40,256 nucleotides of DNA, taken from positions 1 through 40,256 of the forward strand of contig PXSQ01000009.1 in assembly GCA_003022725.1 (NCBI GenBank), written 5' to 3'. This stretch comes from Halobacteriales archaeon SW_7_65_23 (GTDB taxonomy: Archaea; Halobacteriota; Halobacteria; Halobacteriales; Haloarculaceae). Each line of letters begins with the position of its first letter. Position 1 is the stretch's first letter. This document shows, piece after piece, positions 612-32,588 of this stretch. The notes below the pieces were generated by a model. It was given only the letters and a program-made list of their open reading frames with translations, was not told the DNA's origin and did no database searches. A program made the translations under genes and the position numbers.

Positions 612-726
612 TCATACGGTCGTGCGTAATTATTTTCAGCACTAGGGCCCAATATCGTTGGTTTCACGGGCTGAAACGCACAACACGCGATTCCATAGCG
701 GTACAAAGTCGCGCAGGACCGTATCA
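612..726. mobile_element. MITE family 1, copy a
   Basis: A 109-bp element (615-723) lies between TCA trinucleotides at 612-614 and 724-726, which look like a 3-bp target duplication. Its ends are inverted repeats: TACGGTCGTGCGT on the left and the near complement ending GGACCGTA on the right. The reverse complement of 9019-9133 is the same element with about ten mismatches and identical length. It has no coding capacity. The right-hand TCA supplies the TGA stop codon of the rhodanese gene on the minus strand. Confidence 0.85.
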
Positions 727-1089
727 GAACGGCGCGTCGGGTTGCTCGCCAGCCTCGTCCTCGCCCGCAGCGACATCGCTGTCGACGGGGCCGTCCCAGC
801 CCTCGATGCCGGGCGCCAGGCTCTCGACGCGGCCGTCGAACCCCTCGAAGGAGGTGATCAGCCGCGCGGCCTGGACGCTTGCCTTCCCGTGTGGGCAGAC
901 CGTCACGACGTGGTCGGCGTCGCTGACCCGGTCGACTTCCTGGGGAAGCCGGGAGAAGGGAACGTTCACACTCCCCGGGATGTGCTCGCGTTCGAACGCC
1001 CGCGGCTCCCTGATGTCGACGATCACCGGCTCGTCCTCGCTATCTTCGAGCGCCCCGGCGAGTTCCTCGCCCGAAATCTCACCGTCCAT
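724..1089 (-). CDS. rhodanese-like domain protein
   Basis: A single-domain rhodanese of 121 residues, close to the usual size. The active-site loop reads CPHGKAS with the sulfur-carrying cysteine at residue 65, fitting the CxxGxxS pattern. The conserved IVDIREPRAFEREHIPGSVNVP stretch at about 22-44 marks the N-terminal half of the fold, and the tail from about 103 is acidic. Such proteins move sulfane sulfur or act in thiol and persulfide handling in the cytoplasm; the donor and acceptor cannot be told here. The ATG at 1089 directly precedes the domain. The TGA stop coincides with the target-site trinucleotide of a MITE, so the protein may be complete or slightly altered at its end. Confidence 0.88.
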   Translation of the reverse strand: MDGEISGEELAGALEDSEDEPVIVDIREPRAFEREHIPGSVNVPFSRLPQEVDRVSDADHVVTVCPHGKASVQAARLITSFEGFDGRVESLAPGIEGWDGPVDSDVAAGEDEAGEQPDAPF

Positions 1090-1145
1090 ACTCCGTCGTT
1101 GGCCGGCGTCGAATATACCGCTGACGGACCGCAGGCGTCAGCGGC

Positions 1146-1259
1146 TCATACTATCGGACGTGAGTACGTGGAAATCCGCCCCGCTGAACCGCGCTGATAC
1201 GCGCGACTGCTTCGGTGTGAGTCGTGTGTGCTTCCACAGCGTCACGTCCGACAGTATCA
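1146..1259. mobile_element. MITE family 2, copy a (divergent)
   Basis: A 108-bp element (1149-1256) with inverted ends TACTATCGGACGTGA and TCACGTCCGACAGTA lies between TCA at 1146-1148 and TCA at 1257-1259. Ends and length match the copies at 13506-13619 and 32475-32588, but the interior has diverged strongly. The right-hand TCA is the TGA stop of the dockerin-like fragment on the minus strand. Confidence 0.8.
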
Positions 1260-1468
1260 GTAACACCACGTCAGCGTGGATCCACCGTCCTGATCCTCGG
1301 TCAAGTCCTGCAGGAGGACCTGCAGTTCGTAGGAGTCGATCACCAGCAGGACGCGGTCGAGCGAGAGGTCGCCGTTCTCGTAGTCGTCGATCGCATCCAG
1401 CGCGCCGTCGAGCGTGGCGATTCCGTCATCGTCGACGTAGCGATTGCATTCGGGCTCAGCTTCGACGG
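1257..1468 (-). pseudogene. dockerin-like gene fragment without a start
   Basis: Immediately after the NUDIX stop the minus strand keeps an open frame of about 70 codons with no in-frame start codon. It includes NRYVDDDGIATLDGALDAI followed by a DLSLDRVLLVIDSYE segment. The alternating Asp/Gly loop, the hydrophobic helix and the second helix with VLxVIDSY resemble the dockerin/EF-hand-like tail common on secreted haloarchaeal proteins. The main body of such a protein is absent, so this looks like a displaced 3' end. The frame stops at the TGA given by the adjoining MITE. Confidence 0.5.
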
Positions 1469-2017
1469 TCAGCGTTCCTGTTCCGTGGGCAGCAGTCCGT
1501 CGTGCTCGGCCAGCAACAGCCCCTCGATGGTCGCGTCGTTGGCTGGTTCCTCGCGGGCGCGCTTCAGCGCGTCCTCGACCCCCACCGTCGTGACCGACAG
1601 GAACTCGTTGGAGTCGTGCTCAACGCCGACGGGTTCCAACCCCTCCGCAAAGACGATGCCCCGGCGGTGCCGGAGCACGCCCGTGGCACACCAGAACTCC
1701 TCCAGCAGCGAGGCGCCGGCGGGATCGAAGCCCGTCTCCTCGCGCAGTTCGCGGGCGCCCGCGGTGGTGAACGACTCGCCGTCCTCGACGATACCCGCGG
1801 GAAGTTCCAGACAGTGCTCGCGGATGGCGGGGCGGTACTGCTCGACCATCAGCACCTCGTCGTCGGCGACAGCGACGATCACGACCGCCGGGGGGAGTTC
1901 CGCCCAGTAGTAGCGTTTGCGCGTGCCGTCGGGCTGTTCCATCAGATCGTAGCCGCCCTCGTACCAGCCGGTCTCGTACTCGGTGACGGACTTGATCAGC
2001 TCCCAACCCTCCGTCAT
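1469..2017 (-). CDS. NUDIX hydrolase (ADP-ribose pyrophosphatase-like)
   Basis: A 182-residue NUDIX protein. The complete Nudix box lies at residues 75-97: Gly75, Glu81, RE at 89-90, EE at 93-94, Gly96. It cleaves nucleoside diphosphates linked to another moiety using Mg2+. The layout, with a beta-rich N-terminus and YRPAIREHCLELPAG before the box, resembles ADP-ribose pyrophosphatases. The ATG at 2017 is chosen over a longer upstream start because it overlaps the stop of the DUF5809 gene as ATGA and the extension is arginine-rich shadow sequence. The two genes are therefore probably translationally coupled. The exact substrate is not visible. Confidence 0.9.
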   Translation of the reverse strand: MTEGWELIKSVTEYETGWYEGGYDLMEQPDGTRKRYYWAELPPAVVIVAVADDEVLMVEQYRPAIREHCLELPAGIVEDGESFTTAGARELREETGFDPAGASLLEEFWCATGVLRHRRGIVFAEGLEPVGVEHDSNEFLSVTTVGVEDALKRAREEPANDATIEGLLLAEHDGLLPTEQER

Positions 2018-2430
2018 TCGAGAGCCTCCCGGTAGATGCGGCCGAACGCCTGGCGCCGCAGCGTCCCGACGGCGGCCTCGCGCTGGTCCTGGAACGTTGC
2101 GGCGACGGCCCGGTCTGCGAACGCTGGGACGTGCCACACCACGTTGTCCACCTGTTCGTGGCCGACCTCAGTGACCTCGTAGTCGTGCTCGGCTTGCCAC
2201 GTCTCGAACTCCTCGCGCGTGCCGACGTGCACCTGGAGCAGCGAGGCGAACAATGATTCCTGGGCGGTCCGGATCACGTCGTCGGTGATGCGCTCGTCGA
2301 ACTCCGCGCTGTCGAACCCCATCTGCCGGGCGCTCTCTTTCACGACGGTCTCCGCCGCCGGCGTGAGCGAGGCGAAGCGCTCGCGTGCGCCCTCCCGGGT
2401 CTCCGGTGCGAACAGTCCCTCGGTCTCCAT
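2014..2430 (-). CDS. DUF5809 family protein
   Basis: A 138-residue acidic soluble protein starting METEGLFAPETREGARERF. It matches from memory the haloarchaeal DUF5809 family, which has a conserved start, AAETVVKESARQMGFD, a central LFASLLQVHVGTREEFETW and a final TLRRQAFGRIYRE. It is mostly helical, with no catalytic motif or membrane segment. The inner ATG at 2430 is preferred to 2460 because the preceding ten residues are not family-like. It overlaps the NUDIX gene by 4 bp. The function is unknown; linkage suggests a shared role with the NUDIX hydrolase. Confidence 0.8.
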   Translation of the reverse strand: METEGLFAPETREGARERFASLTPAAETVVKESARQMGFDSAEFDERITDDVIRTAQESLFASLLQVHVGTREEFETWQAEHDYEVTEVGHEQVDNVVWHVPAFADRAVAATFQDQREAAVGTLRRQAFGRIYREALE

Positions 2431-2550
2431 ACCCGGTCTCTCGGCCCCGACACCCAACACGGTTTCGGAGCCGGCTGGCGAACGGCGCCCAACACCGGGT
2501 TCCGACGCGTATGGGAAGCTTGACTACCCTCCCGTCCGTCGGCACAGCCA

Positions 2551-4158
2551 GTGAGCGACCAGCCCTCCCACGGCGATGACGATCCTCCGGAACCGGCCGA
2601 CGACTTCGGCGATGGAGGTGGTGACGACGATAACGGCGGCGACCCCCGCGAGTCGATCACCGAAGGGAGTCTGATCCGGCCGCTGTTCCACCTGGCCTGG
2701 CCGATCGTCATCATCCAGCTGCTGCAGGTGACGTACAACGTCGCCGACACCCTGTATCTGGGGCGGCTCTCGGCCGAGGCCGTCGGGGCCCTGAGCCTCG
2801 CGTTCCCCCTCGTGTTCCTGATGATTGCCGTCGCGGGCGGGTTTACTACGGCCGGTGCCATCCTTGTCGCCCAGTACACTGGCGCGGAGGGCGAGAAGTC
2901 CGCCGGGCTGGTCGTCGGCCAGACCGTCACGTTCGTCGGGTTCCTCTCGGTCGTGCTCGGCATCGCTGGGTACTTCTATACGCGGCCGGCGCTGGCGATC
3001 CTGCCAAGCGATCCGGACACCTCCGCCGAGGTGATCCCGCTTGCGGCCGACTACATGGAGCTCATCTTCCTCGGGATGCCGTTCCTGTTCGGGTTTTTCG
3101 TGTTCTCCGCGCTCATGCGAGGATACGGCGACACGCGGACGCCGATGTACGTGATGCTCGTCTCCGTTGTCGCGAACGTCCTGCTGGACCCGTTTTTCAT
3201 CTTCGGGTTCGACGGCAACCCGCTGTTCGACTGGACCGGCCTGATCGGGATGGAGGCGTCGCTGCTGTCGGCAACTGGCTTTACAGGATTCGGCATCGAG
3301 GGGGCGGCGTTGGCCACGATCATCGCGCGGGGCGGGGGCACGGCCATTGGGCTCTACCTGCTGTTTGCGACCGGCGTCGGGCCGGTAGTGCGGCTCTCGC
3401 ACCTCCGGCCCGATCTCCCGTTCATCGAGGACATCGTCCGGCTCGGGACGCCCAGCATGATCGAGCAGAGCACCAGCGCGCTGGCGATGGTCACGCTGAC
3501 GGCGATGGTCGTGACGTTCTCGCCACCAGTCGTCGCCGCCTACGGCCTCGGCAACCGCATCATCTCGCTGGTGTTCCTCCCTGCGATGGGACTCGGCAGA
3601 GCGATTGACACGATGGTCGGGCAGAACCTCGGGGCCGACCGCGCCGACAGGGCGGAACGGTCGGTGTGGCTCGCCGCCTCGACCGGTGCCGGCGTCATGT
3701 TGCTGGTCGCGGTGATTGCCGTGCTGTTCCAGGAGCCGATCGTCAGCGTGTTCCTCGGCGACGTGCCCAACGCGCCGGCGACGATCGAGAACGGGGTGAA
3801 CTACCTCCGGATCCGATCGATGGAGTTCGCGTTCATCGGCATCACGCAGGTCATGCTCGGCGCGTTCCGCGGCGCCGGCAACACGAAAATCGCGATGAGT
3901 ATCTCCATCGTCACACTCTGGGTGGGCCGCGTCGGCACGGTCGGGTTGCTTGTGTTCGGGCTGGGCTGGGGCGCGACGGGCGTCTGGATCGGGATGGCCG
4001 TCGGCAACATCGTCGGGGTGCTGATCAGCGTGCCGTGGTTCCTCCGTGGGACCTGGCGCGAGAAGTACATCGACGACGATGACGTCGAACGCGGCGAGGT
4101 CGAACCCGACGCAGAGGACCCCTCGTCCGTGACGCCAGAAGGGGCCAGCGAGGACTGA
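2551..4158 (+). CDS. MATE family efflux transporter
   Basis: A 535-residue integral membrane protein of the MATE (NorM/DinF) fold. After a 40-residue acidic cytoplasmic head, the sequence reads LIRPLFHLAWPIVIIQLLQ and TYNVADTLYLGRLS, the standard opening of helix 1 and the following loop. About twelve hydrophobic segments follow in two similar halves, the second starting near LGTPSMIEQS. The C-terminus is an acidic tail of about 35 residues. Members export drugs, metabolites or cations in exchange for Na+ or H+; the substrate here is unknown. The start is a GTG at 2551, about 120 bp from the divergently read DUF5809 gene. Confidence 0.93.
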   Translation: MSDQPSHGDDDPPEPADDFGDGGGDDDNGGDPRESITEGSLIRPLFHLAWPIVIIQLLQVTYNVADTLYLGRLSAEAVGALSLAFPLVFLMIAVAGGFTTAGAILVAQYTGAEGEKSAGLVVGQTVTFVGFLSVVLGIAGYFYTRPALAILPSDPDTSAEVIPLAADYMELIFLGMPFLFGFFVFSALMRGYGDTRTPMYVMLVSVVANVLLDPFFIFGFDGNPLFDWTGLIGMEASLLSATGFTGFGIEGAALATIIARGGGTAIGLYLLFATGVGPVVRLSHLRPDLPFIEDIVRLGTPSMIEQSTSALAMVTLTAMVVTFSPPVVAAYGLGNRIISLVFLPAMGLGRAIDTMVGQNLGADRADRAERSVWLAASTGAGVMLLVAVIAVLFQEPIVSVFLGDVPNAPATIENGVNYLRIRSMEFAFIGITQVMLGAFRGAGNTKIAMSISIVTLWVGRVGTVGLLVFGLGWGATGVWIGMAVGNIVGVLISVPWFLRGTWREKYIDDDDVERGEVEPDAEDPSSVTPEGASED

Positions 4159-4190
4159 CCGTTACACAACCCTGATTCGGTATCGGGAGC

Positions 4191-4303
4191 TCATACTGGC
4201 GGCTGTACGTACGTGAAAACTCGAATTGAAAATCCAGGCGGAACGGGTCTATCTCCGCAGTAGTGGAGACTGGTGAGTAAAAGAATTACAGCCACCAGTA
4301 TGA
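4191..4303. mobile_element. MITE family 3, full copy
   Basis: A 107-bp element (4194-4300) with ends TACTGGCGGCTGT and ACAGCCACCAGTA. It is flanked by TCA on the left and TGA on the right, so a target duplication is not exact. Its two ends recur as solo fragments at 20953-20995 (left half) and 27431-27473, 32623-32638 and 13732-13759 (right part). It lies between the convergent ends of the MATE and tgtA genes and fills most of that gap. Confidence 0.8.
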
Positions 4304-4385
4304 GCATCACCGGGGAAATCGGTCAAGTGTTCAGCACGACATCTACGACCCACTCGGCCGCTTCCGGCCGATAGCTCGGCTCTAG

Positions 4386-5855
4386 TCAGCGAGTACCGTC
4401 AGTCCTGCGGACCGTCACGTCCTCGGGCAGCGCCGACAGCGCCGTGGCCGGCCAGCCGTCGTGGAGCAGCGTCACCGACAGCTCCGGGTTCGCCTCGACC
4501 AGCGCCGCCACGCCGCGGGCGGCGGCTTCGTAGGCGGACGTATCGAGCCGCTCGGGTAGCTGCGCCGTGAGCGGGTAGACGTCCGAGAGCGCGGGCGGGA
4601 CCGGCCCGAACGGCGGCACGAGCCGCCAGTACCCGTCGAAGCTGCGCTCGACCTCGCCCCCGCCGACCAGCAGGTCCCCGGCGACGTCGAGCCGGGCCAG
4701 GCGCTCGTGGTGGCGCAGTACCTCCGGTCGGCGCGGGCTGTCCGCCGAGAGGTAAAAGAAGGCGTCTTTCGAGACGGGATCGGTGGCTTCGAGCTGCGCC
4801 GCGTGGTCGAGCAGCGCGCGGTAGCCGTCGAGCATTCGGGGGTGGCCCCGGGCCCGCGCCTCGACGAGTTCCAGCAGATTCCCGCGACGGATCGCGTCCC
4901 GGACCCGGCGCATCTCGCCGAAGGACACCGAGAGGTTGTGCTCGGCCAGCAGGCGGTGCCGGCGCGATTCCTCGGCCTCCCGGAGGTCGGCCGGGGTGTG
5001 GTCCTCGCAAACGGAACAGGCACAGGGGAGCTCGGTGAGATCCTCGAGGTGTTCGGTCCCGTGGACAGTCAGGCAGCGGTCGTCGCGGGCGTACAGCGCG
5101 TACGCAGCGGAGTCGAACAGGTCACAGCCCAGCGCGGCGGCGAGCGCGAACATCATGGGGTGGCCGGCGCCGAAGAGGTGCACGGGTGCGTCCTCGTCGA
5201 GTCCGCGCTTCGTCGCCGCCACGACCTCGACGAGCTCCGCGTAGCGGTACTCGTTCATCAGCGGGACGACGGCGCCAATGGGGTGGACGTCGAGATCCGT
5301 CTTCGCGGCTGCCCGCGCCGCTTCCTCACGCAAGTCAGGGTACGTCGAGCCCTGGATCGGCGCGCTGACGAGCATCTCGCCGGTGTCCATCGCCGCCGCG
5401 GTTTCGAGGCGCTCCTGGGTCGTTTCCTGCTCCTCGGCGGCTTGCCCGCGGGGAACGTCCGGCGGCGTCGGGATGTCGACCGGCGTGGCGATGTCCGTCC
5501 CGATCTCCTGCTGGAACTCGATGATCTCCCGGGTGGTCACGTCGATCTCGCCGTACTCGGCCAGCTGGAACGACCCCGAATCGGTCATGATCGCGCCGGG
5601 GAAGTCGAGTAACTCGTGGACTCCCTGCTCCAAGGCGGGTTCGCGGAGGTCGTCGCTGCCGTGGAGGATATAGCTGTTCGTGATGAGGATCTGCGCGCCG
5701 AACCGCTCGGCGAGGGCCGACGGCGGCACGCCCTGCACGTGGGGGTTGACCACCGGCAACAGCGCCGGCGTCTCGACGGTCAGGTCGGCGCGCGGGACGG
5801 TCAACTCGCCCACGCGCCCCGCTCCGTCGTAGGACCGCACCTCGAAGTGGCTCAT
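4386..5855 (-). CDS. tgtA: archaeosine tRNA-guanine transglycosylase
   Basis: This enzyme swaps guanine-15 in the D-loop of archaeal tRNAs for preQ0, the first tRNA-bound step of archaeosine synthesis. The 489 residues hold the TGT barrel. The nucleophile Asp92 sits in MTDSGSFQL and the second catalytic Asp248 in [14 protein letters not shown]. The structural zinc site is Cys278, Cys280, Cys283 and His306. No PUA domain follows; as is usual in haloarchaea, the RNA-binding part is expected on a separate partner (ArcS/TgtA2), which is not in this window. The ATG at 5855 gives the family start [19 protein letters not shown] weak TATA-like sequence lies about 30 nt upstream. Confidence 0.95.
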
Positions 5856-6279
5856 TGCCCGCTCTAACCACTGGCTGGCGGGTAAGGATTGCGTTCTCCC
5901 GCGTCTGTCGACCTGCCGTCCGCGGGATCTGTTGTTCGCACGCTGGACGATCGACCAGCGGAGTGCTCTGTTGATTCATCTATCGTCCGACGTGACTTTG
6001 TTACATGGCACGGAACAGTATCGAGGGGTTCAGCGTGTTTATCACCAGATATGTCACGCTCAGTCTTCAGTGAATCACGGCGGACTGAAAGGGCGTTGAC
6101 GGCTTCGCCGTCAGCTCGGGAAGCTTCGCTTCCCGGTGAGGCGCGGTCGCGGAGCCCCGACGACGCAAGCACTGCAGCGACCGAAGGGAGCGAAGCGCGC
6201 AGCGAGTCGCGGCCCGCGAGCGCGCCGAGGGCTTTCTACGAGACAGCAGATAAACACCCTTCTCCGGCAAATAACCGAC
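5856..6279. other. intergenic region with GC-rich hairpin element
   Basis: This 424-bp gap has no convincing gene. The right half, about 6085-6240, is a structured element. It has two adjacent perfect hairpins, 6098-6112 (6-bp stem) and 6117-6135 (8-bp stem), both closed by TTC. A GAAAG at 6087-6091 could pair with CTTTC at 6232-6236 to enclose the whole. The left half, 5985-6050, has a weak resemblance to the end of MITE family 2. The short frames here are arginine/serine-rich and not gene-like. Confidence 0.5.
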
Positions 6280-6819
6280 CTACTCCTCGAACAGTTCGTA
6301 GTAGCAGATCCCAAACGCGGAGCGGCCGTCGGGGAACTCGTCGTCGCGGATGTCCGCGAGCAGGTCCTCGTAGTCAGCAGTGGCCACTTCGATGGACTCG
6401 TTGTAATCGAGCGACTGGTCGCCAGCCGGTGCACAGCCTTCGGCTACGAAGTAGTGAAACACCGAATCGGAGTAGCCATTTGCGGGTTCGACGGTCGTCA
6501 GGTGTTCGACCTCGGCGGCCTTGTGACCGGTTTCCTCTTTCAGTTCCCGGTGGACAGCCTCGGCAGGGTCCTCGCCGGGTTCGAGGTTGCCGGCAGGGAG
6601 TCCGCGGTTCACGCGCTCGACGGCCTGGCGCCACTCTTCGATGACGACCACTTCGTCGTCGGTGTTGAACGGGAGGATCACCACGCTCTCGGTCTCCGAG
6701 AGGTAGTCAAACTCCGTCTCGGTGCCGTCCGGGAGCCGCACCTGCTGGTTGACAACGTCGAATCCCTCACAGCTGTACGCGACCTGTTCTGAGCGGATCT
6801 CCCACTGGAGCTCTGTCAT
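6280..6819 (-). CDS. NUDIX hydrolase
   Basis: A 179-residue NUDIX protein with a full Nudix box at residues 77-99: Gly77, Glu83, RE at 91-92, EE at 95-96, Gly98. The VVVIEEWRQAVERVNRGLPAG run before the box is typical of the ADP-ribose/sugar-nucleotide pyrophosphatase group. It is not closely similar to the NUDIX protein at 1469-2017. The ATG at 6819 is preferred over 6846, which would add nine unrelated residues. It is the last gene of the minus-strand photobiology block, 46 bp after the carotene dioxygenase. A role there is unproven, though clean-up of isoprenoid or nucleotide diphosphates is conceivable. Confidence 0.88.
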   Translation of the reverse strand: MTELQWEIRSEQVAYSCEGFDVVNQQVRLPDGTETEFDYLSETESVVILPFNTDDEVVVIEEWRQAVERVNRGLPAGNLEPGEDPAEAVHRELKEETGHKAAEVEHLTTVEPANGYSDSVFHYFVAEGCAPAGDQSLDYNESIEVATADYEDLLADIRDDEFPDGRSAFGICYYELFEE

Positions 6820-6865
6820 GATCCGGACTCGGTCTGCTCGCTGCAAAAGGGTGTGGACATCACTA

Positions 6866-7903
6866 TCAGAGCACGCCCTGCGCCCGATCCAGCCAGGTGA
6901 CGATAGCGACGTGGGGCAGCGTCAGAACGGCGATCAACACGAGATACAGCGCGACCAGGTCGGCCGTCCCGCGCGGCGTCTCCGGGACCAGCAGGTACAG
7001 CCCGCCGAGCAGGGCCAGTGCCCCGGCGGTCATCGGGGCTGCGTCGCGGGCGAATCGCCAGACTGCCGGCGCGATGCGACCCCGTTCGAGCGCGCGGACG
7101 GACTGCTCGTCGAGGAACACCGCCCGGCTGATGTGCCGCAGCGAGTGCCAGACACAGAAGTAGACGCCGATCGCGAGGATCGGCGGCACAAGCAGGAAGA
7201 AGGCGGTGAGCAGCCCCACTTCGCCGGCGTCGAGCAGCCACGGCCCGCGGTCGGCAGCCCGCAGATACCCGAGACCGAGCGTCGCGAGCGCTCCCAGCCC
7301 GTACAGGCCGGCTACGAGCAGCCGGGCCTCGGTCCTGAACAGCGGCGCCAGCGCGTCGGCGGCGGCGGGATTGAACAGCCCGACGAGGCTGGCGGCCACG
7401 AACTCGTACTCGCCGGGGAACGCCACGAGCGGGAGCAACATTGGCGCGGCCCCGCGGACGAGTACTGTCAGGGCCCGCTGACCGGCCGCCCGCAGGTACC
7501 CGGTGTCCGCGAACTTGAACATGGGGTACAGCTCACCCTGGCCCCAGTGAAACCAGGTCAGCAGGATGAAGAAGGCGAACGCGGCGACCGGCCACAGGAA
7601 CCAGACGACGCCGTAGGCAGCCCCCAGGACGAGGTAGACGCCGCCGACGACGCCCAGCCAGCGAGCCGACAGTCGCTCGCCGAGCTGGCGGGGCGCAACG
7701 AGGTGGTCGACCGCCCCGTGGGGCAACCCCAGCAGGAGGACGCTCACGAGCAGCGGCGCGAACTGGTAGCGCTGCGGGATGGGGCCGGCGGCCAGCGAGA
7801 CGGCCGTTACGCCCGCGAGCACGACCCAGCCGGTCCCGAGGACGTACGAAGATGCCAGGCCACGCGCTCGCCGGTCAGTGCCCGCGAGGACTGTTGATCT
7901 CAT
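6866..7903 (-). CDS. blh: Brp/Blh family beta-carotene 15,15'-dioxygenase
   Basis: A 345-residue polytopic membrane enzyme that cuts beta-carotene in the middle to give two retinals, the chromophore of rhodopsins. Conserved iron-binding histidine regions are visible: LPHGAVDHL (His62, His67), TWFHWGQGE (His119) and VWHSLRHIS (His253, His257), with a further His331 near the end. About eight to ten hydrophobic helices are present. Its ATG overlaps the stop of the lycopene cyclase gene as ATGA, so substrate synthesis and cleavage are coupled. It lies 4-5 kb from halorhodopsin on the same strand. Either brp or blh could be its name; the two paralogues are not separable by eye. Confidence 0.92.
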   Translation of the reverse strand: MRSTVLAGTDRRARGLASSYVLGTGWVVLAGVTAVSLAAGPIPQRYQFAPLLVSVLLLGLPHGAVDHLVAPRQLGERLSARWLGVVGGVYLVLGAAYGVVWFLWPVAAFAFFILLTWFHWGQGELYPMFKFADTGYLRAAGQRALTVLVRGAAPMLLPLVAFPGEYEFVAASLVGLFNPAAADALAPLFRTEARLLVAGLYGLGALATLGLGYLRAADRGPWLLDAGEVGLLTAFFLLVPPILAIGVYFCVWHSLRHISRAVFLDEQSVRALERGRIAPAVWRFARDAAPMTAGALALLGGLYLLVPETPRGTADLVALYLVLIAVLTLPHVAIVTWLDRAQGVL

Positions 7904-8688
7904 CCGTCGATTTCAGGTTCGGGGCCGGTGCCCAGCACCGTCGCTTTCCATTCGCTCAGCGCCCCGCTGCCCGCCCGGTCGAGCAGCCACATGTACAGGT
8001 ACAGACACTGGACGACAAAGAGGTTGGTCGTCAGGAAGAACAGCGCCTCCTCGACCGGGAGGCCGAGGAGTCCGATGCCGATCGTGTGCTGGCTCGAGAT
8101 CGTCCAGAGCCCGACGTCGATCGCGAGCCGGTCGATCAGCCAGTAGTAAAGCGTCGGCACGGCCAGCGCGACCAGGGCGGTCCGGCGGATCTCCCAGACG
8201 TACGGCCAGCCGAAGCTCCACTGGATCGCCAGGATCGGCCCGGCCCACAGCAGGATTGCCCCGAGGTAGAACGTCGCTGTGGTCCCCGTGAGGACGTAGC
8301 CGACGGCGGACACGGAGAGCCCGGCGACGGCGCCGACCACGCGGCGGCCCGCGCCGATCCGGAGCGACCGGTCGCGGATCGCCGGGAACTGGAACAGCCA
8401 CAGGGCGGTCAGCACCGGCTGGAGGAGGAAAAATAGGTACTCGCCGACCGGCGCGTGCCAGAGCTGGCCTGCCGTGGTGCCCTCGCCGTACCACCAGACC
8501 CCCTCCGCGATCAGCAGGTTGTCCCACGGTGTCGTGTAGACGAACGCCAGAAACAGTACGATGGCGACACCGCTGAGCGGCTGTGGTCCCCACCAGGCGT
8601 CCTTCCGGTAGATGGCGAGCACACCCAGGGCTACCATCGGTGGCAGCACGAACACAAGGTGGAACTCGAGGTAGGTGAGGGGAGCCAT
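7900..8688 (-). CDS. crtY: lycopene beta-cyclase (CrtYcd-type membrane protein)
   Basis: It cyclises lycopene to beta-carotene, the substrate of the neighbouring Blh enzyme. The 262-residue protein has about seven hydrophobic segments. It carries two repeats of the lycopene-cyclase domain, as in archaeal fused CrtYc-CrtYd enzymes. The first has PWDN at 54-57 followed by GVWWYG and VGEYLFFLLQP. The second has the matching LPVEEALFFLTTN. The ATG at 8688 (MAPLTYLEFH) is chosen because the domain starts at once. ATG 8766 would add 26 polar residues and lies just after a T-rich TATA-like stretch, so it remains possible. It overlaps blh by 4 bp. Confidence 0.9.
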   Translation of the reverse strand: MAPLTYLEFHLVFVLPPMVALGVLAIYRKDAWWGPQPLSGVAIVLFLAFVYTTPWDNLLIAEGVWWYGEGTTAGQLWHAPVGEYLFFLLQPVLTALWLFQFPAIRDRSLRIGAGRRVVGAVAGLSVSAVGYVLTGTTATFYLGAILLWAGPILAIQWSFGWPYVWEIRRTALVALAVPTLYYWLIDRLAIDVGLWTISSQHTIGIGLLGLPVEEALFFLTTNLFVVQCLYLYMWLLDRAGSGALSEWKATVLGTGPEPEIDG

Positions 8689-9018
8689 CTGTGTCGGTGG
8701 GGCGCTGTGCCGGTCCAGCCGTCCAGCCGGGGGTGGCCGGCCGCCAGCGGTGCCCAGTGTGTTCATATACGATAACCGGTGTAAAAATCCTGCAAGCATA
8801 CCTGTCAGGCACGTCCGGCCACCTCACCGCCTGGGGAGACAGCGTGGGCGCTCACGCCCGGTAGCCTGCCACTGGGCGCGCAGCGATCAAGCAGCTGTGG
8901 GCCCGCTCCGGCGGGGACCCGGATCACTGGGCGGATACAACCGCCGGGACTGTCACACCAGCGGCCCGGGCTGGCCAGTTTTCGCCATACCTGTAAGGTT
9001 GTGGACACGGACAGCGGC
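8689..9018. other. intergenic region upstream of crtY
   Basis: This stretch holds the crtY promoter. On the minus strand a T-rich run (GATTTTTACAC, about 8778-8788) could be a TATA box for a start at 8766, and a second AT-rich spot (GTATATGAAC) lies at about 8762-8770. The rest, 8800-9018, is GC-rich with no gene, repeat or RNA that I recognise. Confidence 0.4.
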
Positions 9019-9133
9019 TCATACGGTCGTGCGTGACTTTTTACCGCTATAGAATCGCGTGTTGGACGTTTCAACCCGTGAAACCAGCGATATTGGGCCC
9101 CAGTGCTGAAAATAATCACGCACGACCGTATCA
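9019..9133. mobile_element. MITE family 1, copy b
   Basis: A 109-bp element (9022-9130) in inverse orientation to copy a. TCA lies on both sides (9019-9021 and 9131-9133), with ends TACGGTCGTGCGT and ACGCACGACCGTA, a perfect 13-bp inverted repeat. The right TCA forms the TGA stop of the membrane-anchored protein gene on the minus strand, as copy a does for rhodanese. Confidence 0.88.
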
Positions 9134-9610
9134 GGGCGGACAGACGTCGAGCTGGGTCCGGGTGACGGTCGCCTCCTCGGAGACGCTGTCGATCCAGACG
9201 CGAACCGGCGACCGGTCGGGCAGTTCGACCACGACACGGTCCTCGTCTTCGAGCTGAGAGACGGGGAGTTCTGTTCCGTCTGGGCGGGCGGCTGATGCCC
9301 CGAGCACGCCGCCGTCGACCGCAAATTCGAGTCGTAGCCCGCCCTCTGAATCCGAGGCCTCGAAGGAGTCGATGACGGAGCCGCTCAGCAGCGTTCGGTC
9401 GACCCCGTAGGAGCTGTTGTGGGCCACCTCGGGGTCAGCGCCGAACTCCTCGCAGTCGTACTCCCCGAGGACGTCGACGGTCACCGAGCCGTCGGTGGTG
9501 CCCCCGGTCAGCACCGTGTACAGGCCGTACGCGCCGAACACCGCCGCGGCCAGCGCACCGACTGCCAGCACCGCCAGGATCGCCCGATACGCCAGCGACC
9601 GCTCTGCCAT
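9131..9610 (-). CDS. membrane-anchored extracytoplasmic protein, unknown function
   Basis: A 159-residue protein I do not recognise. Residues about 8-36 form one hydrophobic helix (YRAILAVLAVGALAAAVFGA) after a short basic start. The remaining 120 residues are acidic and beta-rich, as expected for a domain outside the membrane held by an N-terminal anchor. Cys53 and Cys157 could form a disulfide. It follows the bat-like regulator by 65 bp on the same strand. Its TGA stop lies in a MITE target trinucleotide, so the natural end may have been preserved by the duplication. Confidence 0.7.
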   Translation of the reverse strand: MAERSLAYRAILAVLAVGALAAAVFGAYGLYTVLTGGTTDGSVTVDVLGEYDCEEFGADPEVAHNSSYGVDRTLLSGSVIDSFEASDSEGGLRLEFAVDGGVLGASAARPDGTELPVSQLEDEDRVVVELPDRSPVRVWIDSVSEEATVTRTQLDVCPP

Positions 9611-13505: not shown

Positions 13506-13619
13506 TGATACTGTCGGACGTAACTCTGTGTCACATCGTGACACTCTCCTGGCTGTATTCGCACGGTTGAACGGCTGAACACGACGCGTGACTCCACGAA
13601 ATTACGTCCGACAGTATCA
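13506..13619. mobile_element. MITE family 2, copy b
   Basis: A 108-bp element (13509-13616) with perfect inverted ends TACTGTCGGACGTAA / TTACGTCCGACAGTA, flanked by TGA and TCA. It differs from the copy at 32475-32588 at only about four positions over the full length, so both are recent. Confidence 0.88.
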
Positions 13620-13621
13620 GA

Positions 13622-13734
13622 TATACGGCCAGACGTGACTCCGTCCAGTGCCAGGACAGTCCATCGGCTGTGTCATGGCCCGACCAACGGGAGTTGGGAC
13701 GGCATGGCGTAACTGAATCACGTCTGGCTGTATA
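13622..13734. mobile_element. MITE family 4
   Basis: A 109-bp element (13624-13732) with inverted ends TACGGCCAGACGTGACT and AATCACGTCTGGCTGTA, one mismatch in the TIR core apart from transitions. The dinucleotide TA flanks both ends. It starts three bases after the end of MITE family 2 copy b. Only this copy is in the window. Confidence 0.7.
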
Positions 13735-13759
13735 GCAGAGACTGGTGAGTAAAAGAATT
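13732..13759. mobile_element. MITE family 3 remnant
   Basis: The string ATAGCAGAGACTGGTGAGTA and the following AAAGAATT match the subterminal part of family 3 (4261-4287) and the fragment at 27431. The terminal ACAGCCACCAGTA is missing. It directly joins the end of the family 4 element, so this is a stack of three families. Confidence 0.6.
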
Positions 13760-13835
13760 GGCCGGGCCTGGAACGGCCACTCGCATCGCGGTTCGATGTA
13801 GAAATCGATTTGTGGGTCGAGGGAGTCGTTCAGGT

Positions 13836-20952: not shown

Positions 20953-20995
20953 AATCTCAATTCGGGTTTTCACGTACGTACAGCCACCAGTATGA
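20953..20995. mobile_element. MITE family 3, solo left half
   Basis: The reverse complement begins TCATACTGGTGGCTGTACGT and matches 4191-4233 through ACGTGAAAACYCGAATTGA with few differences. The other end is absent, so the element was truncated here. Confidence 0.7.
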
Positions 20996-21009
20996 GAACG
21001 TAGGATGGT

Positions 21010-27312: not shown

Positions 27313-27986
27313 GCTGTCCCCTCCAGCCGTTCGATCGCCGCGACGGTCGCCTCGATCCGGCGGCGACGCTCCCGGCGGGGCGTCAGCCACAGCCGCAGGC
27401 GTGCGCCCAGCGGCGGGGACGGCTCCTCAGATAGCAGAGACTGGCGAGTAAAAGAATTACAGCCACCAGTATCACCAACCATGAGAAACAGCGCTGCCAC
27501 CGGATCGTCCGTCCAGGTTCCCCGCGCGACGGCGTCGCGCGCCGCCTCGCGCGACTGGCCGGTCGCCACTGCGTAGGCGCCGACCGCCGCCGTCGTCAGC
27601 TGTGCGCGCGCATCGTGCAGCGCCGCGCCGCCGTGCTCGACGGCTGCTTCGAAACTCCCGTCGACCGTGGACGCCGAGACGGCGCGCGGCTCCGCTGTCA
27701 CCGCCTCCGGCGGGTTCGCGCCCGCCCGCTCGAACCGCCGCTGGGCCGCCGATCGCGTCCCCGCCGTCTCCGGCGCTGGCCGCGAGCGCGCAACCAGCAC
27801 CACGTAGGCCGTGACCCCCAGGCCGGCCAGCAGCACCAGAATCTTCCCGTCGAACGCGTCGACAGCCTCGATGACTAGCCCGATCGGCCCGAGCGTTCCG
27901 ATCAGGCCCGGCACGAGGAGCAGCGCTAGCCCCAGACCCGTTGTGACAACGCCGATCGCCCCGAGGAGCTTCTCACGCCCCGCCAT
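27309..27986 (-). CDS. DUF7269-like membrane protein with a MITE-derived insert
   Basis: A 225-residue protein with two hydrophobic helices at about 7-35 and 47-66. A long helical cytoplasmic part follows, with HDARAQLTTAAVGAYAVATG and an arginine-rich tail. It is a regular member between transglutaminase and DUF58 genes in haloarchaeal MoxR clusters; the family name is from memory. Near residue 170 the protein reads VAALFL, then about 15 residues including GDTGGCNSFTRQSL, then SEEP. The DNA of this insert (27431-27473) is the right end of MITE family 3, so the insertion kept the frame. The ATG overlaps the transglutaminase stop by 1 bp (TGATG). Confidence 0.78.
   Translation of the reverse strand: MAGREKLLGAIGVVTTGLGLALLLVPGLIGTLGPIGLVIEAVDAFDGKILVLLAGLGVTAYVVLVARSRPAPETAGTRSAAQRRFERAGANPPEAVTAEPRAVSASTVDGSFEAAVEHGGAALHDARAQLTTAAVGAYAVATGQSREAARDAVARGTWTDDPVAALFLMVGDTGGCNSFTRQSLLSEEPSPPLGARLRLWLTPRRERRRRIEATVAAIERLEGTA
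27431..27473. mobile_element. MITE family 3 fragment inside a coding sequence
   Basis: ATAGCAGAGACTGGCGAGTA followed by AAAGAATTACAGCCACCAGT matches 4261-4300 and 13732-13759. It contains the complete right terminus but no left one. It is read through in frame on the minus strand and adds about 15 residues with no stop codon. Confidence 0.75.
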
Positions 27987-32474: not shown

Positions 32475-32588
32475 TAATACTGTCGGACGTAACTCTGTGT
32501 CACATCGTGACACTCTCTTGGCTGTATTCGCACGGGTGAACGGCTGAACGTGACGCGTGACTCCACGAAATTACGTCCGACAGTATAA
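32475..32588. mobile_element. MITE family 2, copy c
   Basis: A 108-bp element (32478-32585) between direct TAA trinucleotides (32475-32477, 32586-32588). Its ends are perfect inverted repeats and the interior is almost identical to copy b at 13506-13619. The TAA duplication shows that the target is TNA, not only TCA. Confidence 0.9.

Follow-up and report, generated by a model that had tools for sequence, protein, structure and literature searches.

Short inverted-repeat elements at the TGA stop codons of haloarchaeal genes: a TNA target and a bias toward gene 3′ ends

Miniature inverted-repeat transposable elements (MITEs) of IS5-type elements (the IS1031 and IS427 groups) have TNA targets and a 3-bp target duplication. 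Here we describe a group of short haloarchaeal elements, most of them with TNA targets, beginning with seven complete copies in a 40,256-nt stretch of contig PXSQ01000009.1 of Halobacteriales archaeon SW_7_65_23 (the window, positions 1 to 40,256), three of which directly abut the TGA stop codon of an adjacent minus-strand frame. Repeats of about this size are known from Haloquadratum walsbyi, for which the part of the published account cited here describes three SMR-A families (HqIRS42, HqIRS43, and HqIRS55) of about 110 bp with an enigmatic mobilization, and gives IS605-type transposons and PATEs as the preferred targets of SMRs (PMC3119063). Elsewhere, according to the excerpt cited, the QMITE2 elements of Coxiella are found primarily in 3′ untranslated regions and the palindromic elements of Rickettsia insert in frame (PMC10969869).

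The elements studied here are repeats of about 108–109 bp that have inverted ends of the form TAC…GTA and a TNA duplication, mostly TCA or TGA. They show features by which MITEs are recognized, being 107–109 bp long and free of any transposase gene, with inverted repeats at their termini, a high copy number, and a target-site duplication. Like the TNA MITEs of IS5-type elements they are short and non-coding, with inverted ends and a 3-bp TNA duplication, but the incomplete genomes examined yielded no full-length element that carries such ends. Outwardly they are also like SMR-A elements, a comparison made by description and not by sequence: in both, lengths are about 110 bp, the inverted ends are prominent, the families are unlike in sequence but alike in length, copies number in the tens and insert into other elements, and the mobilizing enzyme is not identified (PMC3119063, in the part cited). 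We have not filed them as SMR-A because of their clear TNA duplication, whereas SMRs are said in that part to make no target duplication (PMC3119063). The same text mentions unrelated sequences at identical positions in two Haloquadratum strains, which recalls a pair of different elements at a rhodanese gene stop described below, and an 80-bp SMR-B (PMC3119063); we likewise observed an 80-bp element (locus L380, 3691–3770), which has TAG…CTA ends, is flanked by TCA, and lies where an MFS gene stops. QMITE2 is unlike the present elements in its 7–9 bp direct repeats and its variable length of about 190 bp, as given in the excerpt (PMC10969869).

The coincidence of these elements with stop codons proved to be real and common, and its cause ordinary; the surprises that are left are the element group itself and the copies read in frame within genes. 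We consider it likely (a probability of roughly 0.8) that a TSA target (S = C or G), together with selection against insertions at coding and promoter sites, explains the coincidence. By this explanation, non-autonomous elements of about 108–109 bp would insert at TNA, strongly favoring TCA or TGA in the context CTSAG, and duplicate the TNA, and the enzyme that generates the 3-bp duplication would be an unseen DDE-type transposase. Selection would remove most insertions in coding sequence or directly upstream of genes, and the survivors would gather at gene 3′ ends, where the stop is the commonest TSA site.

The target was read from complete elements whose inverted ends match at no fewer than 12 of 16 positions. 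In a first set, families A, C, D, F, and H contributed 151 elements, of which 125 had matched TNA flanks, nearly all of them TCA/TCA or TGA/TGA; family E had TA on both sides in 11 of 12 copies. In an enlarged set of loci, matched TNA flanks were found for 186 of 240 complete elements, a total that includes the TA-type family E, and these comprised 97 TCA, 78 TGA, nine TAA, and two TTA duplications (TCA or TGA in 175/186). The flanks also matched in all 43 elements of 14 other assemblies among the matches listed, though the search pattern allowed C and G to differ. When nested copies were set against the uninterrupted host element, the difference was exactly the 3-bp duplication, or 2 bp for family E. 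Beyond TSA itself there is a preference for C before and G after the site (CTSAG). The reverse complement of a TNA is again a TNA, and a TCA target on one strand reads TGA on the opposite one, so that a TGA stop is always a legal target; in the window, 25 of the 38 called genes end in TGA. The preliminary description of the window had proposed TNA as the target and the TGA stop as a natural instance of it, and the flank counts bear this out.

We claim no excision footprints (a TAC between two copies of the target-site duplication): the candidates TGATACTGA (20) and TGATAGTGA (30) occur often outside coding sequence, the TAC contexts of putative footprints are mostly ends of another family (TACTGATT…), and the TAG contexts were judged from TAGTGATTATTGTGA ends found elsewhere. 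At locus L189, a family D element has a family E copy inserted in its terminal TA.

A duplication that reads in frame as TGA or TAA means that the stop was already present before insertion, and therefore the element duplicates an existing stop rather than making one. In all six usable comparisons with an empty site, the homolog that lacks the element shares the end codon, which is TGA in three cases and TAG in three. The same TGA was found for a family H element (L183) when compared with the sister genome G007 (97.9% identity) and for a family I element (L328) of a second sister genome, G006, when compared with G000, the genome from which the window derives. A TAG occupies the same codon in the G010 homolog of the rhodanese gene of the window, in G006 opposite a family C element at a TAA (L122), and in G000 opposite a family C element of G006 (L062), a site at which, by our reading of the sequence context, the stop of three further relatives comes one codon sooner. 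The sixth comparison, a family D element (L058) with a remote relative, is weak, at 67% identity with an alignment 19 bases short of the end and the TGA at an extrapolated codon. Two cases were left out of the set: L306 versus L355, made ambiguous by a family E copy after the TGA, and L344, an apparent paralog. In all other rows of the comparison an element at the stop is shared. Thus no gene was found to run past the TGA in the usable empty-site relatives. The suggestion that the duplication restores the stop does not hold, in that the original TGA stays on the gene side of the insertion and the second copy lies beyond the element. The companion suggestion of a nearly harmless landing fares better, since the protein is unchanged and the gene keeps its own TGA.

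Insertions at stops were counted against a background of other non-coding TSA sites within about 1.5 kb of each insertion, in two samples. The first comprised the three sister genomes (G000, G006, and G007, 64 to 88% complete). The second comprised 42 elements from the 14 other assemblies, obtained by scanning named genomes for an exact 108-bp pattern and taken from the matches listed, to which all statements on this sample refer: 80 loci out of at least 85 matching stretches, 40 of the loci being omitted as contigs belonging to G006 and G007, with 22 of the 43 elements from one assembly. By title, 13 of these assemblies are haloarchaeal and one is given only as 'Euryarchaeota archaeon'. Halostella pelagica DL-M4 and Halovenus rubra R28 are among the strains that the scan showed to carry such elements. 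Family E, elements with unmatched flanks, 11 TAA/TTA sites, and in-gene elements (seven and one) were excluded before counting. Orthologous insertions were merged (186 rows into 167 clusters), imperfectly, as L337 (G006) and L356 (G000) look like a single insertion counted twice. Exactly at a stop were 40 of 149 insertions in the sister genomes (22.7 expected) and 19 of 42 in the other assemblies (9.5 expected), or 59 of 191 pooled (32.2 expected), a 1.8-fold excess. With target-consensus weights learned from insertions away from stops, 39.5 were expected and the excess was 1.49-fold, a value that roughly 1 in 10000 simulations attained. Merging the insertions in a second way, through BLAST comparison of their flanks, gave near-identical numbers (40/150 versus 23.1; 19/41 versus 9.4; pooled 59/191 versus 32.5, or 40.1 when weighted) and no insertion common to both samples, and with uniform choice at most four of 20000 simulations reached the observed stop counts. 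The more-than-random use of stops that the preliminary description had suspected is therefore present, relative to local non-coding TSA sites. In a limited literature search, we recognized no earlier report of MITE insertion at stop codons from titles or the openings of abstracts.

On the pooled data, the stop codon has no special status as a target. Among the 88 insertions located 0–25 bp from a gene 3′ end, 59 were at the stop and 59.9 were expected from availability, which lends no support to the idea of the stop as a target in its own right; the second merging gave 59 of 90 versus 60.9, with 40/69 versus 42.1 and 19/21 versus 18.8 for the two samples. Sites 1–25 bp past the stop were over-used (29 versus 16.1 pooled; 27 versus 13.4 in the three sister genomes, an excess similar to that at the stop itself) and those up to 60 bp upstream of starts were under-used (17 insertions versus 41.1 expected). 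Only eight of 199 insertions were in called genes, yet genes hold 9026 of the 12169 TSA sites in the set of loci tallied. In addition to the target, its duplication, the pre-existing stops and the enrichment, a bias toward gene 3′ ends was thus observed, and we infer that it is due to selection and not to target choice.

Several points weigh against this reading. The genes were called by a codon-usage model made in this analysis and are not curated, and only surviving insertions were available for separating target choice from selection, with no data on fresh transposition. The genomes also differ. In G006, sites just past the stop were over-used (16 versus 6.6) and stops only mildly so (12 versus 8.4), while the stop was favored both in G000 (24 versus 11.2, with 7 versus 5.2 just past it) and in the second sample (19 versus 9.5, with 2 versus 2.7 just past it). 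Family A was at the stop in seven of 15 copies in G000 and in none of eight in G006. Finally, on visual inspection at least four of the 27 just-past cases resemble secondary insertions, with a stop-site element as the host of the new copy at its end, and counting these as stop events would shift the balance toward the stop.

It would be possible to take such figures as a sign of active targeting, in which gene ends or stops attract the transposition machinery, for example via a host factor at termination sites. The roughly 1.5-fold over-use of stops that persists with consensus weighting (59 versus 39.5) favors this, as does the second sample, in which the stop alone and not the next 25 bp is over-used. 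We nevertheless regard it as unlikely, in view of the fact that near 3′ ends the stop receives just its share, pooled and in each sample apart, and that the G006 excess lies past the stop; we do not place it lower because a general draw to gene 3′ ends is compatible with the tests run. Another alternative, that elements are kept at 3′ ends as useful transcription terminators or RNA-stability hairpins, would fit the 3′ excess and appears distinctly improbable. All seven window elements fold better as single DNA strands than do their shuffles (z −2.2 to −5.7), though inverted ends alone yield that result. In the orientation tallies, which pool loci from all genomes, family A is lopsided near gene ends, with few copies (9 versus 2 counting near sites, P 0.065), but family C is present in both orientations, with no significant bias at stops (19 versus 12, P 0.28) and a reversed ratio just past them (8 versus 12). 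Moreover, family D copies in G000 are 95–100% alike across most full-length rows, which argues for recent spread over long retention.

That the element creates the stop, truncating longer genes at the duplication, is highly improbable. Nothing at the exact stop sites speaks for it, and what can be adduced comes from another MITE, MITEAba12, a premature-stop copy of which is described in the part of the source cited (PMC6382973). Against it stand the prior stop that an in-frame TGA or TAA duplication requires, the shared end codon of all six empty-site homologs, and the finding, from our reading of the overlap list, that a called gene ends inside the element in only two of 125 elements. As for chance, the preliminary description had counted three stops in seven elements; the three stop hits are real, but the denominator is six, as one of the seven is a TA-type family E copy, and two of these six TNA-type copies carry unmatched flanks. 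With a per-element background rate of 0.12 to 0.17, the probability of at least three hits in six is 0.026 to 0.066, and the window alone is weak evidence that does not settle whether there is an excess. With 40 of 149 insertions at stops, 19 of 42 in the second sample, for which flank comparison revealed no insertion in common with the first, and the simulation results given above, chance coincidence as the sole cause is scarcely tenable. Selection acting on insertions at a TSA target is the explanation we prefer.

The three window elements at stops each have TCA on either side. They are a 109-bp family A element at 615–723 (terminal inverted repeat TACGGTCGTGCGT; duplication at 612–614 and 724–726), a 108-bp family D element of variant B at 1149–1256, and a second 109-bp family A element at 9022–9130. 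The right-hand TCA of each is, as originally described, the TGA stop of a minus-strand frame, at 724–726, 1257–1259, and 9131–9133, respectively, and the three frames represent two called genes and one gene remnant. The first gene (724–1089, minus strand, 121 aa) encodes a rhodanese-domain protein (PF00581, E 5e-16). In G007, a different 108-bp element, of family F, is at the identical TCA of this gene (L091/L061), and we read this as two insertions into one attractive site, or a replacement. The TGA at 1257–1259 closes a frame with coding-like codon usage (a mean of 0.42 bits per codon, versus 0.43 for the rhodanese gene) in which no gene was called and no Pfam match above the cut-off was found, and which we take to be a gene remnant. 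Its earlier designation as dockerin-like came solely from the appearance of its residues. The right part alone of the adjoining element remains at the equivalent place in G007. The third stop belongs to a 159-aa gene (9131–9610, minus strand), membrane-anchored in the wording of the preliminary description, that was called from codon usage and has no Pfam match; no alignment to it was obtained in the G006 and G007 intervals between its neighbors, where alignment is poor.

The window is contig C9 of the G000 genome (2.63 Mb in 115 contigs, 79% complete), and its seven complete elements, all with inverted ends starting with TAC and none assigned a strand, belong to families A (two), D/B (three), C (one), and E (one). 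In addition to the three at stops there are a 107-bp family C element at 4194–4300 with unmatched flanks (TCA and TGA), a family D element at 13509–13616, also unmatched (TGA and TCA), the 109-bp family E element at 13624–13732, which has a TA duplication and is outside the TNA group, and a family D element at 32478–32585 with a TAA duplication and no stop at the site. Partial family C matches are located at 13733–13778, 20957–20996, and 27432–27477. A 105-bp stretch at 5981–6085, with 99% identity to places in G006 and G007, is probably another short repeat. In pattern counts for G000 as a whole, which list each place on both strands, there were 47 forward and 47 reverse matches for family C and 50 and 51 for the D type. 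No plasmid matches to the family C query and no phage matches to the family D query were found.

A mobilizing transposase was not found with PF13586, PF13358, and PF01609, other transposase families not having been searched. PF13586 and PF13358, which we take as markers of IS5-type and IS630-type enzymes, respectively, each had no match in the three incomplete genomes (0/3), and none of the five PF01609 matches in these genomes lies between TAC-type ends that have the same TNA on both sides. As the genomes are 64 to 88% complete, this absence is weak evidence. Among 457 loci there was no candidate for a full-length relative that combines these ends with a transposase. Five cases in which matching ends lay further apart, between equal flanks, were considered as an autonomous parent and rejected. 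Three hold host genes, namely LysX/LysW in L234, an MFS transporter in L380, and thymidylate kinase with an unmatched protein in L412; the pair in L054 has no called gene, and that in L139 has a single short called gene, which was not searched.

Some family C copies are read through by genes. Of 110 unique copies in all genomes pooled, seven are inside called frames (L123 277–2208, minus strand; L311 1457–3112, plus strand; L109; L240/L268; L314; L006; L449) and 103 are outside. For the 108-bp families the element and its duplication add 111 nt, or 37 codons, and the inserts are about 37 residues long. One of these genes, whose product has the editing domain of threonyl-tRNA synthetase, received the element twice independently: the insert is near the N terminus in G006, where it is exactly 37 residues in comparison with the insert-free G007 protein, and further on in G000. 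This gene may be a second copy and not the essential one, because further synthetase-like matches with 32–33% identity exist in G006 and G007. Six of the in-gene copies are read in one frame and one in the other commonly open frame. A uniform frame alone is no proof of selection, since two of the six family C frames are open in most non-genic copies (87 and 93 of 103) and detection itself requires an open frame. A 109-bp family A copy is also in a called frame, at L230; its 112-nt step breaks the frame, and hence it was not counted. In their reading through in frame and adding a similar peptide, the in-gene family C copies are like the Rickettsia palindromic elements, which are bacterial and about 150 bp long according to the excerpt cited (PMC10969869), and unlike which family C is mostly outside called frames. 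It could be supposed that the design of the group, one of fixed-length repeats lacking a recognized transposase, makes landings harmless twice over, through an opal-stop target and a 37-codon read-through, with length and open frame both selected, an idea we hold to be rather unlikely.

These findings give a plain quantitative account of the stop coincidence, in which a 3-bp target that spells TGA is filtered by selection, and they correct a conclusion that is easily drawn, namely that the elements single out the stop codon or restore it. They also indicate that SMR-A-like haloarchaeal repeats of about 108 bp do leave a target duplication, which would point to a DDE-type enzyme. Lastly, proteins gain inserts of about 37 residues from one family, a way of acquiring new segments such as has been described for Rickettsia.

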